IMG/VR virus record: IMGVR_UViG_3300046004_001066
Location: 1-35,578 of that record
Direction: 5' to 3' (one strand)
DNA: 35,578 nt
DNA from: a virus
Within the stretch, counting starts at the first letter, position 1. Each line of letters opens with the position of its first letter. The notes beneath the pieces were generated by a model. That model was not told the origin of the DNA. It did not search any database and was given only the letters and a program-made list of their open reading frames with translations. Positions 7,977 through 33,436 of this stretch are shown one piece after another. Position numbers and translations under genes: made by a program.

Positions 7977-8024
7977 ACAATTAAGACTTAGGTAGATTTT
8001 AATGTGACATATTAAAATAAACCA

Positions 8025-8053
8025 TTGACTTTATAGTAATTTCGTGATTTAAT
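8025..8053 (+). promoter_or_regulatory. Promoter for the GIY-YIG gene
   Basis: TTGACT (8025-8030), 17 bases, TTTAAT (8048-8053). It overlaps the 5' arms of the leader helices, so only transcripts entering from upstream would contain the complete structure. Confidence 0.5.
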
Positions 8054-8148
8054 GTCTAAATGCAGATAGGTTGCGCGACCGACAAGCCCTTTAGTAAGGT
8101 TTCTGCTTTTAGTAAATACTAATCACAATAATCCTAATTACTATAAAG
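8029..8148 (+). promoter_or_regulatory. Multi-helix structured leader ahead of homing endonuclease
   Basis: Nested perfect helices: CTTTATAGTAATT (8029-8041) with AATTACTATAAAG (8136-8148), GTGATT (8044-8049) with AATCAC (8121-8126), and GCAGA (8062-8066) with TCTGC (8102-8106). These enclose two hairpins, GGTT/GACC (8069-8080) and CCTT/AAGG (8088-8099). The outer helix covers the start of the AAAGGA ribosome site of the gene at 8161. Confidence 0.6.
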
Positions 8149-8160
8149 GAATCAAAGCAA

Positions 8161-8898
8161 ATGACTAGAACTCAAAAAGATTACTACGTTTATACCCACT
8201 CGCTTGCTGGACAGCCGCCTTTTTATGTTGGGAAGGGAAATGCAAAAAGAATCAAAAGAATTCCCCGTGAAAATAATCCACATCATTGTAACATCATCGC
8301 TAAGTACGGAAAAGAAAACATCATCGTTAGAACTATGTTATGTCGCTCTGAAAGTCATGCTTTAGATTTGGAAATTAAACTTATCGCAGCTTTACGCGCT
8401 GGAGGAGTAAAACTGGTTAATGTGACTAATGGTGGAGATGGGATGTCAGGTCATAAACATTCTGAAGAAACAAGAGCTAAATTATCAGAAGCTGCAAGAA
8501 ATAGGTCTGAAGAAACACGAGCTAAAATATCAAAAGCGAATACTGGTAGAAAACATACAGAAGAAACTAAAGCTAAAATGTCGGAAGTTCATAAAAATAT
8601 GTCAGATGAAACTAAAGTGGAAATTTCAGCTAAGTTGTCAGCGTGTAAAATTGGTAATGTTGTTTCAGAAGAAACGAAAGCTAAAATATCAAAAGCTAAT
8701 AAAGGACGACCAAAATCAGAAGGAACTAAAGCAAAAATGTCAGAAGCTGCTAAAACTATGACTGACGAACATAAAGCTAAGATGAAAATCGCTAGGAACA
8801 ACAGACCTCCAGCGTCAGAAGAAACAAAAGCTAAAATGTCCGCAGCTCAAAAATTAAGATATTCAAATAACATATCAACCAAATACCCAACAGATTAA
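8161..8898 (+). CDS. GIY-YIG homing endonuclease with NUMOD3 repeats, 245 aa
   Basis: A free-standing selfish endonuclease. The nuclease domain occupies about residues 5-95: YVY (9-11), FYVGKG (21-26), conserved basic residues, the metal-binding Glu (E71 in LDLEIKLIAAL) and the NVTNGGDG end. From residue 99 on there are about eight copies of the DNA-binding NUMOD3 motif ([KM]-[ST]-[ED]-E-T-[RK]-AK-[ILM]-S). It is clearly paralogous to the gene at 32852 (shared HHxxIxAKYGKENIIV and GHxxSxET). It would spread by cutting relatives lacking it. The structured leader suggests translational restraint, as known for T4 I-TevI. Confidence 0.92.
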   Translation: MTRTQKDYYVYTHSLAGQPPFYVGKGNAKRIKRIPRENNPHHCNIIAKYGKENIIVRTMLCRSESHALDLEIKLIAALRAGGVKLVNVTNGGDGMSGHKHSEETRAKLSEAARNRSEETRAKISKANTGRKHTEETKAKMSEVHKNMSDETKVEISAKLSACKIGNVVSEETKAKISKANKGRPKSEGTKAKMSEAAKTMTDEHKAKMKIARNNRPPASEETKAKMSAAQKLRYSNNISTKYPTD

Positions 8899-8976
8899 CT
8901 AGAAATCAGTTTCAGAAAGTTCTGAGTAAAAACTTTCAAATTTACCGATAGTGTGAAATAATTTTAAAATAAAATC

Positions 8977-9005
8977 TTGTACTACATAATGTGATGTAGT
9001 ACAAT
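8977..9005 (+). promoter_or_regulatory. Promoter inside an 11-bp inverted repeat
   Basis: TTGTAC (8977-8982), 17 bases, TACAAT (9000-9005). TTGTACTACAT (8977-8987) and ATGTAGTACAA (8994-9004) are perfect inverted arms. The repeat therefore spans both core boxes, and a bound regulator would shut the promoter. Confidence 0.78.
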
Positions 9006-9011
9006 TTATCA

Positions 9012-9110
9012 AACTTAAATTCCTACAGGAGAACTCTACATTCCTACCATGAAAACGCTTTGAATCAGCTAATGTTTTCTCGATAAGGGAGTTTTTGTCG
9101 AGAAATTTTT
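9012..9110 (+). ncRNA. Candidate small RNA or rdgC leader, about 100 nt
   Basis: It lies between the promoter at 8977 and the terminator ending at 9110, with no usable ORF (ATG 9049 gives MKTL only, without a placed ribosome site). It contains ATTCCTAC twice (9019-9026, 9040-9047). The core ATTCCTA is complementary to TAGGAAT in the ribosome site of the helicase gene (10011-10017). It may be a free sRNA or an attenuated leader of rdgC. Confidence 0.45.
9076..9110 (+). terminator. Rho-independent terminator
   Basis: TTTCTCGA (9076-9083) pairs with TCGAGAAA (9098-9105) around a 14-base loop, followed by TTTTT (9106-9110). Confidence 0.68.
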
Positions 9111-9178
9111 GTAACAGTATCACTTATAATAGCTAGTATCATTAAGCTAGATAAACTTTAACTACTTGGAGAATCGCC

Positions 9179-9961
9179 ATGTTCAAAAATATTACTGCAT
9201 TTCTATTAGAAACACCTATTGACACACTTGACTTATCAGCTAACACCTTCACACCATGCACAGCGCAACAAGAAGTCTCACAAGGATTTGTTCCAGTAGA
9301 AGGCGAGCTAGTCTACACCGATACAAACACTCACCACCACATCGCCCTTAAAACCGAAACTAAGCGTGTACCTGCTGGGTTACTACGCGAAGAAATTAAC
9401 AAACGGATTGAGTCTTTACCGTTTCATCCAACTAAAGCTGAGAAAGACACAATTAAATCAAATGTTCATTTTGAGTTACTTGCAAAAGCCTTTCCAACAA
9501 GCAAAGTTACTGAGGCGTACATCACAGATAATACGATTGTCGTGAATACCAGTTCGTTAAAACTCGCGGAGGAGTTAGTTTCACAGTTACGCGTAGCTTT
9601 AGGCGGTCTAACAGCAACACTATACAACATCGAAGACATAACATTCAAAATGACTGATTGGGTTGATAAAGGTGATACCTTACCTGAAGGCTTGATTGTG
9701 GGTGATTCGGCGTTATTATTAGGTTTAGATTCATCAATAAAGTATAAGCGACATGATTTATCATGCAATGAGATTAAATCGCATATTGCTGATGGTTTAC
9801 AGGTGACATCTTTAGGTTTAGAATTAGAAGGTATTAAATTTACTTTGACTGAGGATTCGCAGTTTAAAAGTTTAAAATTCGACTATGAATCGGATGGATT
9901 TGATGCTGATTGCTTGTTATTAGCGGATGTGGTTGATAAGCTGTTAGCAACTGTGCGATAA
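9179..9961 (+). CDS. rdgC: RdgC-like recombination-associated protein, 260 aa
   Basis: Matches the RdgC family from its first residues: MFKNITAFLLETPID, then FTPCTAQQ, QGFVPV and HIALKTETKRVPAGLLREEINKRI. The KAEKDTIKSNVHFELLAKAFP segment and an SLKLAEELVSQLRVALGGL helix follow. Length (260) is a little below cellular RdgC (about 300). RdgC is a ring-shaped dsDNA-binding protein of beta/gammaproteobacteria that limits RecA filament formation. In a phage with its own annealing system it may keep host RecA off phage DNA (inference). A TATAAT at 9125-9130 could be the -10 of a promoter downstream of the terminator. CTTGGAG precedes the ATG. Confidence 0.88.
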   Translation: MFKNITAFLLETPIDTLDLSANTFTPCTAQQEVSQGFVPVEGELVYTDTNTHHHIALKTETKRVPAGLLREEINKRIESLPFHPTKAEKDTIKSNVHFELLAKAFPTSKVTEAYITDNTIVVNTSSLKLAEELVSQLRVALGGLTATLYNIEDITFKMTDWVDKGDTLPEGLIVGDSALLLGLDSSIKYKRHDLSCNEIKSHIADGLQVTSLGLELEGIKFTLTEDSQFKSLKFDYESDGFDADCLLLADVVDKLLATVR

Positions 9962-10020: not shown

Positions 10021-11403
10021 ATGTTTAAACTAACCGAAGAACAAGAAAATTGCATTAGCCTTGCAGCAACAGGTGAGGACTTGCTTATTGAAGCCCTTAG
10101 CGGAGCTTCAAAAAGTACCACATTGCGCGAGATAGCAAAGAGTCAGCCGAATAAGCGTTTTTTGTATATTGCATACAACAAATCAGTCGCCACTGAAGCC
10201 ACTGAGACATTTCCTAAAAACACCACCTGTAAGACGATTCATTCGATTGCGTTTGGCGCGATAGGCTATAAGTACGCTAAACGCTTAGGCAATCTTAACG
10301 CTTATATTGCAAGCAAAGAATTACACACGGATACTAAGACGGCTAGGATTGCAATTGACGCGGTGAATAACTTTTGCACAACTGCTGATGAGGTTATCAC
10401 AGAGGAACACCTACCAGACATCTTTAAAGATGGTGAGTTGTCACACGAGACACAAGCTAAGAAGCGTCATTGGGTGGAGTTAAGTAATAAGCTGTGGGCT
10501 AAGATTTGTGATGTGGACAGTAAATTAGCAGTCAATCACGATAACTACCTAAAGATGTACGGGTTGTCTAAGCCTACATTAAATTACGATGCAATACTTT
10601 TTGACGAGGTGCAAGACACGAATGGTGTGTTATATGGCATCAGTTTGCAACAGGTTTGCCAAAAAATCTATGTCGGCGATAGATTGCAAAACATCTATTC
10701 GTTTCGCAACACCATTAACATTATGAGCGTGGTAAATGTGAAGCATCGTGGTACGTTGTCATGCAGCTTTCGCTTCGGTTATCAGGTAGCTGATTTGGTG
10801 AATAAAATGATGGCTGACGTGATGTTTACGCCGATGCAGACGTTGCCTAGTAAGTCCACAAGCATCGTGACTAAAAACCGTTATCCATTTACGGTAATTA
10901 CGCGGACGAATGCTAGTATAATTGACGTTGTTTTAAGAATGCACAATATCGGTAAGAAGTGCCATGTGATTGGTGGAGCGGATGAGCAGATAGCTCAATT
11001 GGAGGCTATTTATTGTATTCACAAGGGTGGAACTACGAATTATTGGGCGTTTAAGCGGTTTAAGGATTTTAAGTCGCTACTTATCTATTCGAATTCGAGG
11101 GAAGGGGAAAATTACAAAGCGATTGTAAATTACATCTCGAAGAAGCTGGATGAGATTCCTGAAATTGTGAAGGCGTTGCGTGCGTGTGTGAGTGCTGACA
11201 AGGCAGATGTGTCGTGTGTGACAGCGCATTCTTCCAAAGGGGCAGAATTTGACAATGTTACGCTGTATTCGGACTACCCGTCAAAGCATGATAAGCAGTG
11301 GTCTGAAGAAGAATCTCGCCTACTTTACGTTGCGATAACTCGCGCTAAAAAAGAATTGAACATTTCTAAATGTGATGCGGTTAAATCTTATTTAAACGGT
11401 TGA
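10021..11403 (+). CDS. UvrD/FBH1-like SF1 DNA helicase, 460 aa
   Basis: ATP-driven 3'-5' helicase of superfamily 1A. Motifs in order: Q-motif (LTEEQENCI), Walker A (ALSGASKSTT, K31), Ia (FLYIAYNKSVA), Walker B (FDEVQD, 194-199), III (VGDRLQNIYSFR, 218-229), IV (CSFRFG), V (TAHSSKGAEFDNV, about 400) and VI (LYVAITRAKKEL, near 436). The 2B insertions are short, as in compact phage helicases. Walker A has Ser where the Gly before Lys is usual (GASKST for GAGKTT), which may lower ATP turnover or be tolerated. Likely acts in replication restart or recombination. The TGA stop overlaps the next promoter. Confidence 0.93.
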   Translation: MFKLTEEQENCISLAATGEDLLIEALSGASKSTTLREIAKSQPNKRFLYIAYNKSVATEATETFPKNTTCKTIHSIAFGAIGYKYAKRLGNLNAYIASKELHTDTKTARIAIDAVNNFCTTADEVITEEHLPDIFKDGELSHETQAKKRHWVELSNKLWAKICDVDSKLAVNHDNYLKMYGLSKPTLNYDAILFDEVQDTNGVLYGISLQQVCQKIYVGDRLQNIYSFRNTINIMSVVNVKHRGTLSCSFRFGYQVADLVNKMMADVMFTPMQTLPSKSTSIVTKNRYPFTVITRTNASIIDVVLRMHNIGKKCHVIGGADEQIAQLEAIYCIHKGGTTNYWAFKRFKDFKSLLIYSNSREGENYKAIVNYISKKLDEIPEIVKALRACVSADKADVSCVTAHSSKGAEFDNVTLYSDYPSKHDKQWSEEESRLLYVAITRAKKELNISKCDAVKSYLNG

Positions 11404-11428
11404 CAAACTTTACTAATTGCTGTAGCAT
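11400..11428 (+). promoter_or_regulatory. Promoter overlapping the helicase stop codon
   Basis: TTGACA (11400-11405, containing the TGA stop), 17 bases, TAGCAT (11423-11428). It drives the gene at 11549 through a long structured leader. Confidence 0.68.
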
Positions 11429-11435
11429 CTGTTTT

Positions 11436-11526
11436 GCCAAAGTTAATATATTCATAACCCTTATCAGAAACGCTTTATAATCTTAAATGACTATATTAAC
11501 TTGGCGGTTAGTTTCTGGTAGGGGTT
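11436..11526 (+). promoter_or_regulatory. Interleaved long helices (pseudoknot or RNA switch) in a leader
   Basis: Helix A pairs 11436-11450 with 11492-11505: 14 base pairs plus one bulged A. Helix B pairs 11456-11471 with 11511-11526: 16 pairs, two of them G-T. The arms alternate A1-B1-A2-B2, with 5-base gaps inside each half. Five bases cannot span a 16-bp helix, so the two are probably alternatives. Helix B is followed by TTCTATTTTT and could act as a terminator, with A as antiterminator. Confidence 0.65.
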
Positions 11527-11548
11527 TTCTATTTTTAGGAGTTTTAAA

Positions 11549-12025
11549 ATGCAGTTAGATATTACGAGCGATTCAGTGGCATTACGGTTAATGAATGAAG
11601 TTTCAGAAAGCATGAGTGATGATTATTTAAATATGACAATCAGAGAATTTAGAAATATATATCAAGACAAGATAAAAGTTCTAAAGAGTTATAAAAATAT
11701 CTCTCCGATGCTAATTGGTTGCATTGAGACAGAAATGTGTCACTATATTGGAGTTTTAGCAAACAAAGATATTCCTTCCATCATACATACCTATCTTGTA
11801 TATAATAAATCTAATGGATTACATAAAATAGGTAAATCGATTGATGTTGGTAAAAGAATTATTCAGTTACAAGTTGCAACTGGCGCAGACTTAGAACTAA
11901 TCTTGGTTATTGAAAAGAATGTTGAACGAGAGCTACATAAAGAATTAAAAGGAAGTCATGTACATGGTGAATGGTTTAGATTAGGTATTTCTGAAATTGA
12001 GTTTATTAAGTCTTATATGAAATAA
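11549..12025 (+). CDS. GIY-YIG protein of the T5orf172/Mug113 type, 158 aa
   Basis: The C-terminal half fits the T5orf172 subgroup of GIY-YIG nucleases: TYLVYNKSNGLHKIGKS (about 81-97), VGKRIIQLQVATGADLELI, an ERELHKEL metal-site helix and GEWFRLG near the end. The N-terminal 75 residues are helical and unassigned. Such proteins occur in many phages, with roles from DNA degradation to mobility. This one is not a paralogue of the NUMOD3 endonucleases here. AGGAG lies 7 bases before ATG. Its neighbours are methyltransferases. Confidence 0.8.
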   Translation: MQLDITSDSVALRLMNEVSESMSDDYLNMTIREFRNIYQDKIKVLKSYKNISPMLIGCIETEMCHYIGVLANKDIPSIIHTYLVYNKSNGLHKIGKSIDVGKRIIQLQVATGADLELILVIEKNVERELHKELKGSHVHGEWFRLGISEIEFIKSYMK

Positions 12026-12064
12026 ACACCGACTGCCAATGAAAACGCATGGTCAGGATACAAC

Positions 12065-12121
12065 ATGAAATGGAATGTTTCATTCGTGACCAAATTGTTA
12101 AAAGATAAAAGTTATATTTAA
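12065..12121 (+). CDS. Possible 18-aa ORF in leader region
   Basis: ATG with CAGGAT 7 bases upstream encodes MKWNVSFVTKLLKDKSYI. It sits within inverted repeats GGTCA/TGACC and ATGAAA/TTTCAT. It may be a leader peptide for the methyltransferase or a chance ORF. Confidence 0.25.
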   Translation: MKWNVSFVTKLLKDKSYI

Positions 12122-19474: not shown

Positions 19475-19549
19475 GTGACGGTAGCATAATCAGGTTAATG
19501 CCTTCTACTCATAATAGAATTTATGCAGGTTCGAGTCCTGTCTGTCACA
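19475..19549 (+). tRNA. tRNA with CAT anticodon (elongator Met or Ile2)
   Basis: A complete cloverleaf: acceptor GTGACGG/CTGTCAC (one G-T), D-stem GCAT/ATGC with an AATCAGGTTA loop, anticodon stem TTCTA/TAGAA with loop CTCATAA (anticodon CAT, 19510-19512), variable TTTAT, and T-arm GCAGG/CCTGT with loop TTCGAGT. The discriminator is A and CCA is not encoded. The 1-72 pair is G-C and the anticodon stem lacks three G-C pairs, so it is not an initiator. Met elongator is likeliest. An isoleucine tRNA with lysidine-modified C34 is the alternative. Confidence 0.9.
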
Positions 19550-19560
19550 CTAAATAATTG

Positions 19561-31643: not shown

Positions 31644-31877
31644 ATGAACCAACAACAATACCAACAAGGTAGAAACACCTTAATCGACACGCTTAATTGG
31701 ACGAGTGAATCTATTTCAGAGTTTGCTGGAAAGACATTAGAAAACGAAGGTTCTTCCGCAATGCGAGACGAAGTTGTAGAGGTAGTTAAAGAACTAAAGG
31801 CTAACTTCAATGAGGTTTTAGATGACATGATTCTAAGTATTGAAAACGTAAATCTAAAAGGTAATTCTGATGAGTAA
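31644..31877 (+). CDS. Hypothetical acidic helical protein, 77 aa
   Basis: Acidic helices throughout (DEVVEVVKELKANFNEVLDD). It begins 3 bases after the previous stop and overlaps nrdB by 8 bases, so it is in the nrd operon. Not recognised. Confidence 0.65.
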   Translation: MNQQQYQQGRNTLIDTLNWTSESISEFAGKTLENEGSSAMRDEVVEVVKELKANFNEVLDDMILSIENVNLKGNSDE

Positions 31878-32862
31878 AGTACATATTCAAGAAAAATCAG
31901 AATCGTTTGTGATTCGGTATCCTGAGATTGACGAATTTATGGAACAACAGCTTGATATTTTCTGGACAGCTAAGGAAGTCAATGTTGAAAAAGACATTAA
32001 CTCTGTGTTGACAGACTTTACTGAAGCAGAACGTCATGGTGTAATAACAACATTGAAATTATTTACACTTTACGAGCTTCGCGCTGGAGATTACTGGTCA
32101 GATAGATATACTAAAATCTTCAAACGACCTGAATTTAAAGCGTGGGGAGCTGCTGCTAGTATGGTTGAACACTGTGTACATCGTAAGTTCTACAACAAAA
32201 TCAACGAGTTGTTACATTTAAACACCGATGAATTTTACACAGATTATGTAAAAGATGAAACATTAAAAGCTAGAATGGAATTTGTTGAATCCGTAGCATC
32301 AAGTAAGAATGATTTAATTTCACTCAGCGGATTCTGTTTGATTGAAGGCGCGGTATTGTATTCTAGTTTTTCGTACTTAAAGCATTTTCAATCTAACGGT
32401 AAAAACAAATTACCGAATCTTGTTCGCGGAATCGACTATAGTGTGCGCGATGAAGATTTACATTCGTTAGTCGGAGCATGGTCGTTCAAAGCTCTCAAAT
32501 CACAGTTAAAGTTAAAAGCTGTGCATGAGGACGCTTTACTCGATGATATTGTTGAGATGGCTAATGCAATTTATGAGCATGAATCACGAATTATCGACAT
32601 GGTGGTAGAAAAAGGTGAACCTGAGAATTATCGTGCTGAAGATGGTAAAAATTTCGTAAAATCACGCGTCAACTTATGTATGAATAGACTTGGATATGAT
32701 GATATTTTCGTGGTAGAATCCAATCCGATAGCCGATTATTTTTATCGCGGAATTAAAAACTACGGTTTTAATGATGCTTTTGTCGGTATGTCAAACGAGT
32801 ACCATCGTGCATGGGATGAATCTAAATTCACAATTAAAGGTAAATATAAAAATGTCAACTAA
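31870..32862 (+). CDS. nrdB: Ribonucleotide reductase beta subunit (class I), 330 aa
   Basis: Ferritin-fold radical-generating subunit. Ligand positions: E69 (TLYE, where E. coli has Asp84), E100 and H104 (EHCVH), E159 (LIEGAVLYSSF), E195 and H198 (RDEDLH). Y108 sits four residues after H104, as the radical Tyr122 does in E. coli. The first ligand pair is spaced E-x3-H rather than the textbook E-x2-H. The C-terminus (AWDESKF, then basic residues) should dock in NrdA. Its stop lies inside the start of the inserted endonuclease gene. Confidence 0.93.
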   Translation: MSKVHIQEKSESFVIRYPEIDEFMEQQLDIFWTAKEVNVEKDINSVLTDFTEAERHGVITTLKLFTLYELRAGDYWSDRYTKIFKRPEFKAWGAAASMVEHCVHRKFYNKINELLHLNTDEFYTDYVKDETLKARMEFVESVASSKNDLISLSGFCLIEGAVLYSSFSYLKHFQSNGKNKLPNLVRGIDYSVRDEDLHSLVGAWSFKALKSQLKLKAVHEDALLDDIVEMANAIYEHESRIIDMVVEKGEPENYRAEDGKNFVKSRVNLCMNRLGYDDIFVVESNPIADYFYRGIKNYGFNDAFVGMSNEYHRAWDESKFTIKGKYKNVN

Positions 32863-33436
32863 AGAACAAGATTTTTATGTTTATACTCATTCTCTCGAAG
32901 GGTATGGAATCTTTTATGTAGGAAAGGGTCTTCTTGTGAGAACTAAACGTGTTCCGCGTCCTCACAATCCACATCACACGCGAATTGTTGCAAAATACGG
33001 AAAAGAAAACATCATCGTTCATTCTATGTTGTGCAGGTCGGAACAATGCGCTCTTGAACTTGAGGTGAAAATGATTGCTGCGTTAAGAAACGGTGGTGTT
33101 AAATTATCTAACATAACCGATGGAGGTGAAGGCGCGTCTGGTCATACACTTTCTGACGAAACAAAAGCCAAAATGTCAGCAGCGGGTAAAGGTAAAATTA
33201 TGTCTGATGAACATAAAGTCAAAATATCCGTGGCTAAAAAAGGTATTGTTGTGTCTGACGAAACTAAAGCCAGATTATCTGCTGTTCATAAAGGTAAGGT
33301 TCGCATCCCTTTTTCTGAAGAAACTCGTGCGAAAATGTCAGCAGCTAAGAAAGGTGTTCCTAAATCAGACGAGCATAAAGCAAAAATGGTCTTGGTATGG
33401 GAAAAGCGCAGGCTATCCAAACAAACCGTCATCTAA
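32852..33436 (+). CDS. GIY-YIG homing endonuclease with NUMOD3 repeats, inserted between nrdB and nrdA, 194 aa
   Basis: Same architecture as the gene at 8161: YVY (9-11), FYVGKG (21-26), Glu E71 in LELEVKMIAAL, NITDGGEG, then about five NUMOD3 units (SDETKAKMSAAGKG and variants). It starts 11 bases inside nrdB. Its first 12 bases, ATGTCAACTAAA, are identical to the first 12 of nrdA, 705 bp downstream. Endonuclease genes between or in nrd genes are known from T4-like phages (mobE), so this is a typical homing site. Confidence 0.92.
   Translation: MSTKEQDFYVYTHSLEGYGIFYVGKGLLVRTKRVPRPHNPHHTRIVAKYGKENIIVHSMLCRSEQCALELEVKMIAALRNGGVKLSNITDGGEGASGHTLSDETKAKMSAAGKGKIMSDEHKVKISVAKKGIVVSDETKARLSAVHKGKVRIPFSEETRAKMSAAKKGVPKSDEHKAKMVLVWEKRRLSKQTVI

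Follow-up and report, generated by a model that had tools for sequence, protein, structure and literature searches.

We found that the predicted leader of a probable homing-type nuclease gene in a phage record carries two long RNA helices, X and Y, whose arms interleave in the order X1-Y1-X2-Y2, and that the same layout, in other letters, stands before further nuclease and antirepressor genes of two related phages and before one nuclease gene of an unrelated phage. Modelling of these RNAs leaves it at about an even chance that the leader works as a sequential two-state device limiting the gene behind it, with X as the early state and Y as the off state. The window, that is, the whole stretch of DNA analysed here, is a 35,578-base phage record from IMG/VR, and the features around the leader (W1) are as follows.

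10021-11403, + strand: UvrD-like helicase gene, upstream of the leader; the conserved neighbour used for placing homologous leaders
11400-11428, + strand: predicted sigma-70-type promoter, TTGACA-17-TAGCAT, 10 of 12 matches; the helicase TGA stop lies inside the -35 box
11412-11421, + strand: R1, possible extra arm in the promoter spacer, in read-through RNA only; could pair with 11503-11512 (-14.4 kcal/mol)
11436, + strand: predicted transcription start, placed from the -10 position, with 7 nt between box and base
11436-11450, + strand: X1, 5' arm of helix X, at the predicted RNA 5' end; 14 pairs with X2, A11439 bulged
11456-11471, + strand: Y1, 5' arm of helix Y; 16 pairs
11492-11505, + strand: X2, 3' arm of helix X; extendable by 11487-11490
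11511-11526, + strand: Y2, 3' arm of helix Y; ends 22 nt upstream of the start codon
11525-11536, + strand: T-rich run after Y, TTTTCTATTTTT, intrinsic-terminator-like; the hairpin loop would be 39 nt
11537-11541, + strand: Shine-Dalgarno sequence AGGAG, 7 nt before the ATG, outside helix Y
11549-12025, + strand: T5orf172/MUG113 gene (GIY-YIG superfamily), 158 aa, probable homing-type nuclease; Pfam matches to MUG113 and T5orf172
12026-12118, + strand: remnant of an AntA-type antirepressor C-terminus, translation TPTANENAWSGYNMKWNVSFVTKLLKDKSYI, matched by eye to the end of the gene at 9740-10543 of L123

Both helices, reported in an earlier note as alternating arms of 14 pairs with one bulge and 16 pairs with two G-T, are present in the order described, Y pairing 11456-11471 with 11511-11526 and including two G-U among its 16 pairs. 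The equal 5-base gaps of that note hold for the X1-Y1 and X2-Y2 spacers (5 nt each), but the middle spacer, between Y1 and X2, is 20 nt. Helix X can be extended inwards by pairing 11452-11455, all but one base of the first gap, with 11487-11490, and the extended helix runs 11440-11455 x 11487-11502. The summed stacking score of X and Y (-45.2 kcal/mol) was matched by none of 2000 dinucleotide shuffles in which only the transcribed part of the leader was shuffled, the best shuffle reaching -35.5, and by none of 300 in a separate run; a 120-nt fold of the leader region gave z = -2.93. An equal sum of -45.2 kcal/mol is reached on the + strand of the window by one further interleaved pair, at 2590-2719 within ORF 2495-2776.

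The leader from the predicted start to the gene is 113 nt long and contains no + strand ORF of at least 40 aa, in agreement with the earlier note, and a search for tandem repeats at 11300-11650 found none. The T-rich run reported behind the second helix was likewise recovered, with 10 T among its 12 bases, although at 39 nt the loop would be long for an intrinsic terminator; a simple terminator scan allowing loops of 3-8 found no terminators in the leader region. Since Y2 ends at 11526 and the Shine-Dalgarno sequence begins at 11537, the latter is left unpaired by Y in the window.

The first base of X1 coincides with the predicted transcription start at 11436. The window promoter by itself is unremarkable: its -10 box, TAGCAT, has only 4 of 6 matches, its score is no better than that of shuffled sequence, and shuffles give 1.1 such sites on average. 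Directly after the helicase gene in the relatives stand TTGACA-17-TAATAT (L129) and TTGACA-17-TATAAT (L131).

As the earlier note had proposed, the gene behind the leader encodes a T5orf172-type GIY-YIG protein; it is 48% identical to the product of 10629-11141 in L123. PMC10448857 treats T5orf172 genes as homing endonucleases, with homing described as not proven, and a word search of the main text of that paper found none of the terms promoter, leader and secondary structure. The gene at 9740-10543 in L123 is AntA by domain assignment, and MQLDIT begins both the AntA proteins of the relatives and the nuclease gene of the window. With an AntA remnant lying directly behind the T5orf172 gene, the nuclease gene appears to have displaced most (the middle) of an antirepressor gene at 11549-12118.

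Some further features of the window were recorded. An extended ribosome-binding sequence, AACTTGGAGAAACAAAATG, recurs before several genes (at 2822, 7452, 16447, 23481, 29514 and others), and a 45-base tandem duplication (98%) at 1976-2065, within ORF 1957-2190, repeats a hydrophobic stretch. A second endonuclease-like gene at 32771-33436, with repeats similar to 8161-8898, overlaps the end of ORF 31870-32862, which we take to resemble a ribonucleotide reductase small subunit.

Related phages were reached through an RdgC-like neighbour, with which a search returned two of them, L122 (G001, 71%) and L123 (G002, 67%), and a distant locus, L124; the helicases of L122 and L123 are 71-73% identical to that of the window. 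Alignment searches with the helicase and the endonuclease returned the same two phages and nothing further, and single-sequence searches of IMG/VR with the nuclease gene or the helicase of the window gave no close homologues. Neither the helicase nor the L193 protein discussed below had a relative in the GTDB genomes. Compared with named phages at the DNA level, the window stretch gave only short chance matches, and the leader sequences of the relatives matched either in the HNH coding part alone or not at all. The AACCCYTAYCAGAAAC motif hit chance sites in IMG/VR, and among the matches listed, 121 loci, the Y partner was present only at the copy of the window itself (L001). A scan for TTAAGGATTTTTNCGTTTA gave 6 stretches, three of them in G001 and G002 and three in other contigs lacking the layout.

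In both relatives the gene order is helicase, promoter, leader, GIY-YIG/NUMOD3 homing endonuclease (assigned on the G002 copy, to which that of G001 is 62% identical), second promoter, leader and AntA gene. We refer to the endonuclease leaders as G1a and G2a and to the AntA leaders as G1b and G2b; an additional leader in G002, G2c, precedes an HNH-like gene whose start matches Salmonella phage DNA annotated as homing/HNH endonuclease, although a Pfam search with a 61-aa piece of it found no match. In all six leaders of the three phages, which were found through homology and then confirmed by scans filtering on that same layout, a 5'-terminal helix X is interleaved with a longer Y, and none of 300 shuffles of each attained the observed score. 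In a blind scan of pieces of the three phages, leaders took first place on the + strand of each piece containing them, with a tie in the window. Helix Y spans 16-31 pairs, and the X1-Y1 spacer of G1b is 6 nt. The place of Y2 relative to the gene falls into two patterns: either it covers the AAGGA preceding the ATG, fully in G1a and G2c and partly in G2a, or it ends 22 (W1), 29 (G1b) and 30 nt (G2b) before the ATG with T-rich sequence alongside. In L131, nested TGTTATTCGTGTTATT-type repeats in both orientations were seen at 9099-9230, downstream of ORF 7982-9106.

The leader of the window shares only its place and layout with those of the relatives, and no homologue of its sequence was found; compensatory changes were sought between the orthologous leaders of the two relatives. 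Aligned G1a and G2a have 55 pairs with 95.4% of cells paired, compared with 28-44% after shifting the partners by 1-3 columns, and six double compensatory changes, one in X, one in Y and four in R, a helix formed with the promoter spacer (L129/L131); these values were attained by 7 of 500 shuffles. Between G1b and G2b, Y has one double change, six one-sided changes, 2 broken and 5 gapped pairs, and X has two one-sided changes and no double change, while the inner hairpin has two double changes. With two sequences per comparison, the covariation evidence is suggestive rather than strong. The earlier note had tied its case to homologous leaders keeping both helices and to covariation in them; since both helices are retained in 6 of 6 leaders, W1 included, and orthologues show double changes in both X and Y, its two-state reading survives.

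The position of the layout relative to the promoter was examined with no constraint on where the arms lie. Between -60 and +170, the X1 arm of the best interleaved pair starts, relative to the predicted transcription start, at -1 in W1, at 3 in G1a, G1b and G2a, at 6 in G2b, at 2 in G2c and at 1 in L193, the leader of the unrelated phage, so that all 7 fall within -1 to +6. Among 175 promoter-like sites of the three related phages, a set from which G2c was left out for its weaker -35 box, five scored -30 or below, and all five are X/Y leaders. Five of these leaders also take the top five places among 763 promoter-like sites on both strands of 2.13 Mb of fetched viral DNA, a set that included the three related phages. 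When the -10 box alone was used (8912 sites, with a rough G+C correction), the top five were G1b, G2b, L193, G2c and G2a, the -10 boxes of W1 and G1a having fallen under the threshold of that scan; the G+C corrections in these scans are ad hoc. The sole other high-scoring match examined in one G+C-corrected scan, L150, has its arms in a gene.

Outside this clade the layout is rare. An alignment search for T5orf172 genes gave 43 loci, of which 42 genes, that of the window included, could be scored with 100 shuffles a locus; among the 40 loci with a bounded gene, the window and G002 excluded, only L193 carries the layout. There, an extended -10 box, TGGTATAAT, is followed by X1 (AGCTTCGCCAGAG) exactly at the predicted start, Y1, X2, Y2, TTTTGTTT, AAGGAG and the gene, whose product matches MUG113, and none of 2000 shuffles of the transcribed part reached its X/Y score; helix Y of L193 looks like an intrinsic terminator. 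Immediately upstream of its -10 box, at 2820-2840, lies a palindrome, AAACGGCCGTTT, possibly an operator. L163 was rejected as a carrier, its score being owed to repeated palindromes (CGCGCGATAATCGCGCGA, twice, at 2930-2995, just before the T5orf172-type gene). Fourteen loci of named phages, taken from many matches to endonuclease, T5orf172 or AntA genes, were also scored: 10 have no interleaved pair, and the four weaker pairs, L144 (-37.8), L148 (-33.0), L152 (-30.4) and L154 (-29.6), were not counted; the first arm of L144 lies in a gene, and one record annotates L154 as a group I intron endonuclease. The independent lineages with the layout are thus two, the three-phage clade and L193.

Folding was computed with a nested model, in which pseudoknots are invisible. 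Stepwise folding of the growing RNA gave X first and then Y in all 7 leaders; in W1, X appears from +64 and Y from +88, and in G1a and G2a Y does not take over until +130 and +128, where the start codon lies. The two near-equal structures that the earlier note had anticipated were found in G1a (-46.8 versus -46.6 kcal/mol) and G2a (-31.2 versus -30.4), but not in the window (-28.6 versus -22.6), where the Y state is favoured by 6 kcal/mol and X has an equilibrium probability of 0.0 in the nested model. Since the Y state of W1 is better by this amount, X could matter there only during transcription or within a pseudoknot. For the local RNA, peak pair probabilities are 0.36 for X and 0.64 for Y in G1a, and 0.26 and 0.74 in G2a; in read-through RNA of these two leaders, which holds R1, X drops to 0.0 and Y climbs to 1.0.

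Helix R is convincing only in G1a (0 of 300 shuffles) and G2a (1 of 300) and, statistically, before the 8161 gene of the window (3 of 300). Elsewhere it is weak (17 of 300 and 132 of 2000 shuffles attain its score in W1, 25 of 300 in G1b, 94 of 300 in G2c and 1936 of 2000 in L193) or borderline (10 of 300 in G2b). The 8161 gene is a GIY-YIG/NUMOD3 endonuclease gene (8161-8898) whose X/Y score is not significant (25 of 300). At 8026-8161, its promoter spacer CTTTATAGTAATT is perfectly complementary over 13 nt to AATTACTATAAAG, adjoining the Shine-Dalgarno sequence, which resembles the T4-type start-site hairpins of read-through RNA; as a clean case of that type it was rejected, since closure of the start site by R was absent in folding.

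The sequential two-state reading would combine these results in the following way. The first nucleotides of the transcript would form X with the segment just 5' of Y2, and since X2 is transcribed ahead of Y2, X would form first as the polymerase advances, and Y, then the more stable helix, later. Because the two helices are interleaved and share no bases, each would hinder the other by topology. Y is read as the off state since Y2 lies over AAGGA (G1a, G2c and in part G2a) or T-rich sequence lies beside Y (W1, G1b, G2b); in the window and L193 it would act through a terminator-like helix with a T-rich run behind it, and in the endonuclease and HNH-like leaders of the relatives by closing the Shine-Dalgarno sequence. 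The element would thereby limit expression of the gene that follows, whether mobile nuclease or AntA. In the endonuclease leaders of the relatives, R would use bases of the promoter spacer that are present in read-through RNA only, compete with X and so favour Y, which may keep the gene silent in long transcripts and still expressible from its own promoter. The two-state switch or attenuator of the earlier note is thus favoured by the layout and by covariation in the relatives, and disfavoured by the unequal states of W1 and by possible coexistence of the helices; its statement that the two cannot both form fully is unproven, interleaved helices being able in principle to coexist as a pseudoknot.

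Such coexistence is itself a rival explanation, which on modelling we regard as possible though rather unlikely: the free 5' end, X1, would thread the loop of Y to make a stable 5'-terminal pseudoknot that, rather than switching, shields the mRNA from 5'-end-dependent decay or acts as an operator for a protein, in the manner of T4 gene 32. All 7 leaders have X1 at the predicted 5' end, which threading requires, Y stands at a distance from the Shine-Dalgarno sequence in W1, G1b and G2b, and the leader pseudoknot of T4 gene 32, as presented in PMC3014915, is a precedent; however, the length of Y and short spacers, such as that of G1b, would strain full coexistence in some leaders, and neither the position of Y over AAGGA in G1a and G2c nor the covarying R in the promoter spacer would be explained. 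A further rival is a T4-style start-site hairpin, in which read-through RNA makes an inhibitory helix with the promoter spacer, local RNA lacking that arm is translated, and X and Y are secondary. The four double compensatory changes of R between G1a and G2a, its significance in G1a, G2a and the 8161 gene, and the mechanism described for T4 in PMC2988022 all speak for this explanation, which we nevertheless consider improbable, given that R is weak in W1, G1b, G2c and L193, where X and Y are strong, and that folding shows no closure by R at the start of the 8161 gene.

The arms could also be DNA sites for protein binding or recombination, such as an operator or a homing target, with the RNA pairing incidental. 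The leaders are found where mobile genes have their promoters, the -10 box and the start lie between the R arms, and repression at its own promoter is known for a gene of this kind, I-TevI, from PMC2988022; but arms of 11-31 pairs covary while their letters diverge and start at the first transcribed base, which base pairing fits better, and the interleaved order yields no single palindrome. The operator idea was dropped because the arms change together, and we hold a DNA-level role to be quite improbable. Chance inverted repeats would be consistent with the in-gene pair of the window that reaches an equal sum, and are very unlikely in view of the shuffle results (0 of 2000) and the recurrence of the layout at homologous positions with compensation. 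Type III toxin-antitoxin loci consist of a promoter, a structured RNA, a terminator and a nuclease, with tandem repeats in the RNA. The similar arrangement here, in which a pseudoknot-like RNA and a terminator-like helix precede a nuclease domain, would suit an RNA antitoxin of this type, yet the leader has no tandem repeats and the same layout precedes AntA and homing endonucleases, so that this explanation is hardly to be expected to hold.

The sequential two-state leader was compared with known systems of leader regulation. Terminator and antiterminator of trp-type and riboswitch-type attenuators normally share bases. The leaders described here resemble attenuators in that an early helix is followed by a helix with a T-rich run ahead of the gene, and differ from them in that X and Y share no bases and oppose each other only by interleaving, X excluding Y in nested folding, and in that no known aptamer and no leader ORF of at least 40 aa was found. 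Rfam matched only a tRNA in the window, with no riboswitch and no group I intron core; within 11380-11600 it gave only miRNA and snoRNA models far under their gathering scores, and in L122 and L123 nothing with E up to 1. A tRNA-Met (CAT) gene lies at 19475-19550 of the window.

According to the sections of PMC2988022 on T-even homing endonuclease genes (I-TevI, I-TevII, I-TevIII, segB and Aeh1 mobE), expression is kept off by leader structures that engage the ribosome binding site in the long early transcripts; the short late transcripts lack them. The present leaders are similar in having a structured leader before a probable mobile nuclease gene with a predicted promoter of its own and, in the relatives, in the Y that lies over the Shine-Dalgarno sequence and the R available to read-through RNA only. 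Unlike the T-even leaders, they hold two long interleaved helices wholly within the local transcript, with X1 as its first nucleotides, and in the window the Shine-Dalgarno sequence is uncovered and the promoter is sigma-70-like rather than T4 late. Pairing of the Shine-Dalgarno sequence is thus absent from the window, present in G1a and G2c and partial in G2a; as to a promoter inside the structure, X and Y lie wholly downstream of the predicted start, and R, which would fit, is weak in the window. Since the window leader lacks Shine-Dalgarno pairing, a defining feature of the T4-type systems, we have filed it as a variant of these systems and not as a member. In seg43 of Aeromonas phage 25, a stable hairpin lies just upstream of the ribosome binding site and not over it; this is a single hairpin, for which the account in PMC2988022 describes no interleaved partner. 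The leader of T4-type gene 32 forms a pseudoknot that binds the gene's own protein beside an A+U-rich stretch, as outlined in PMC3014915; the window helices differ in their 14-16 pairs, their position at the 5' end and the lack of a known ligand. Searches of the open-licence part of the PubMed Central literature listed no description of this layout among interleaved or pseudoknotted leaders on such genes.

The recurrence of one layout in differing letters across genes of related and unrelated phages looks like an evolved on/off latch. More broadly, we put forward, as a tentative proposal that is less likely to hold than the two-state reading itself, a class of leader RNA on mobile nuclease and antirepressor genes of unrelated phages, in which a long helix at the 5' end would be interlocked, with no shared bases, with a terminator helix or a helix closing the start site; a local start with a free 5' end, as opposed to read-through with a buried arm and R, would decide which helix wins, and the letters would drift freely while the layout is kept. 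A physical question is thereby raised, namely whether interlocking by itself lets two RNA helices with no base in common switch one another. Homing endonucleases are widespread parasites of phages whose carrier must stay undamaged, and the answer of T4 is to place hairpins over the start site. If the proposal is true, the signature of a promoter, X1 at +1, Y1, X2, Y2 and a start codon would find regulated mobile genes computationally, and other phages would use a latch unlike that of T4, made of two interlocked helices anchored at the first base of the transcript and maintained by compensation amid drift.
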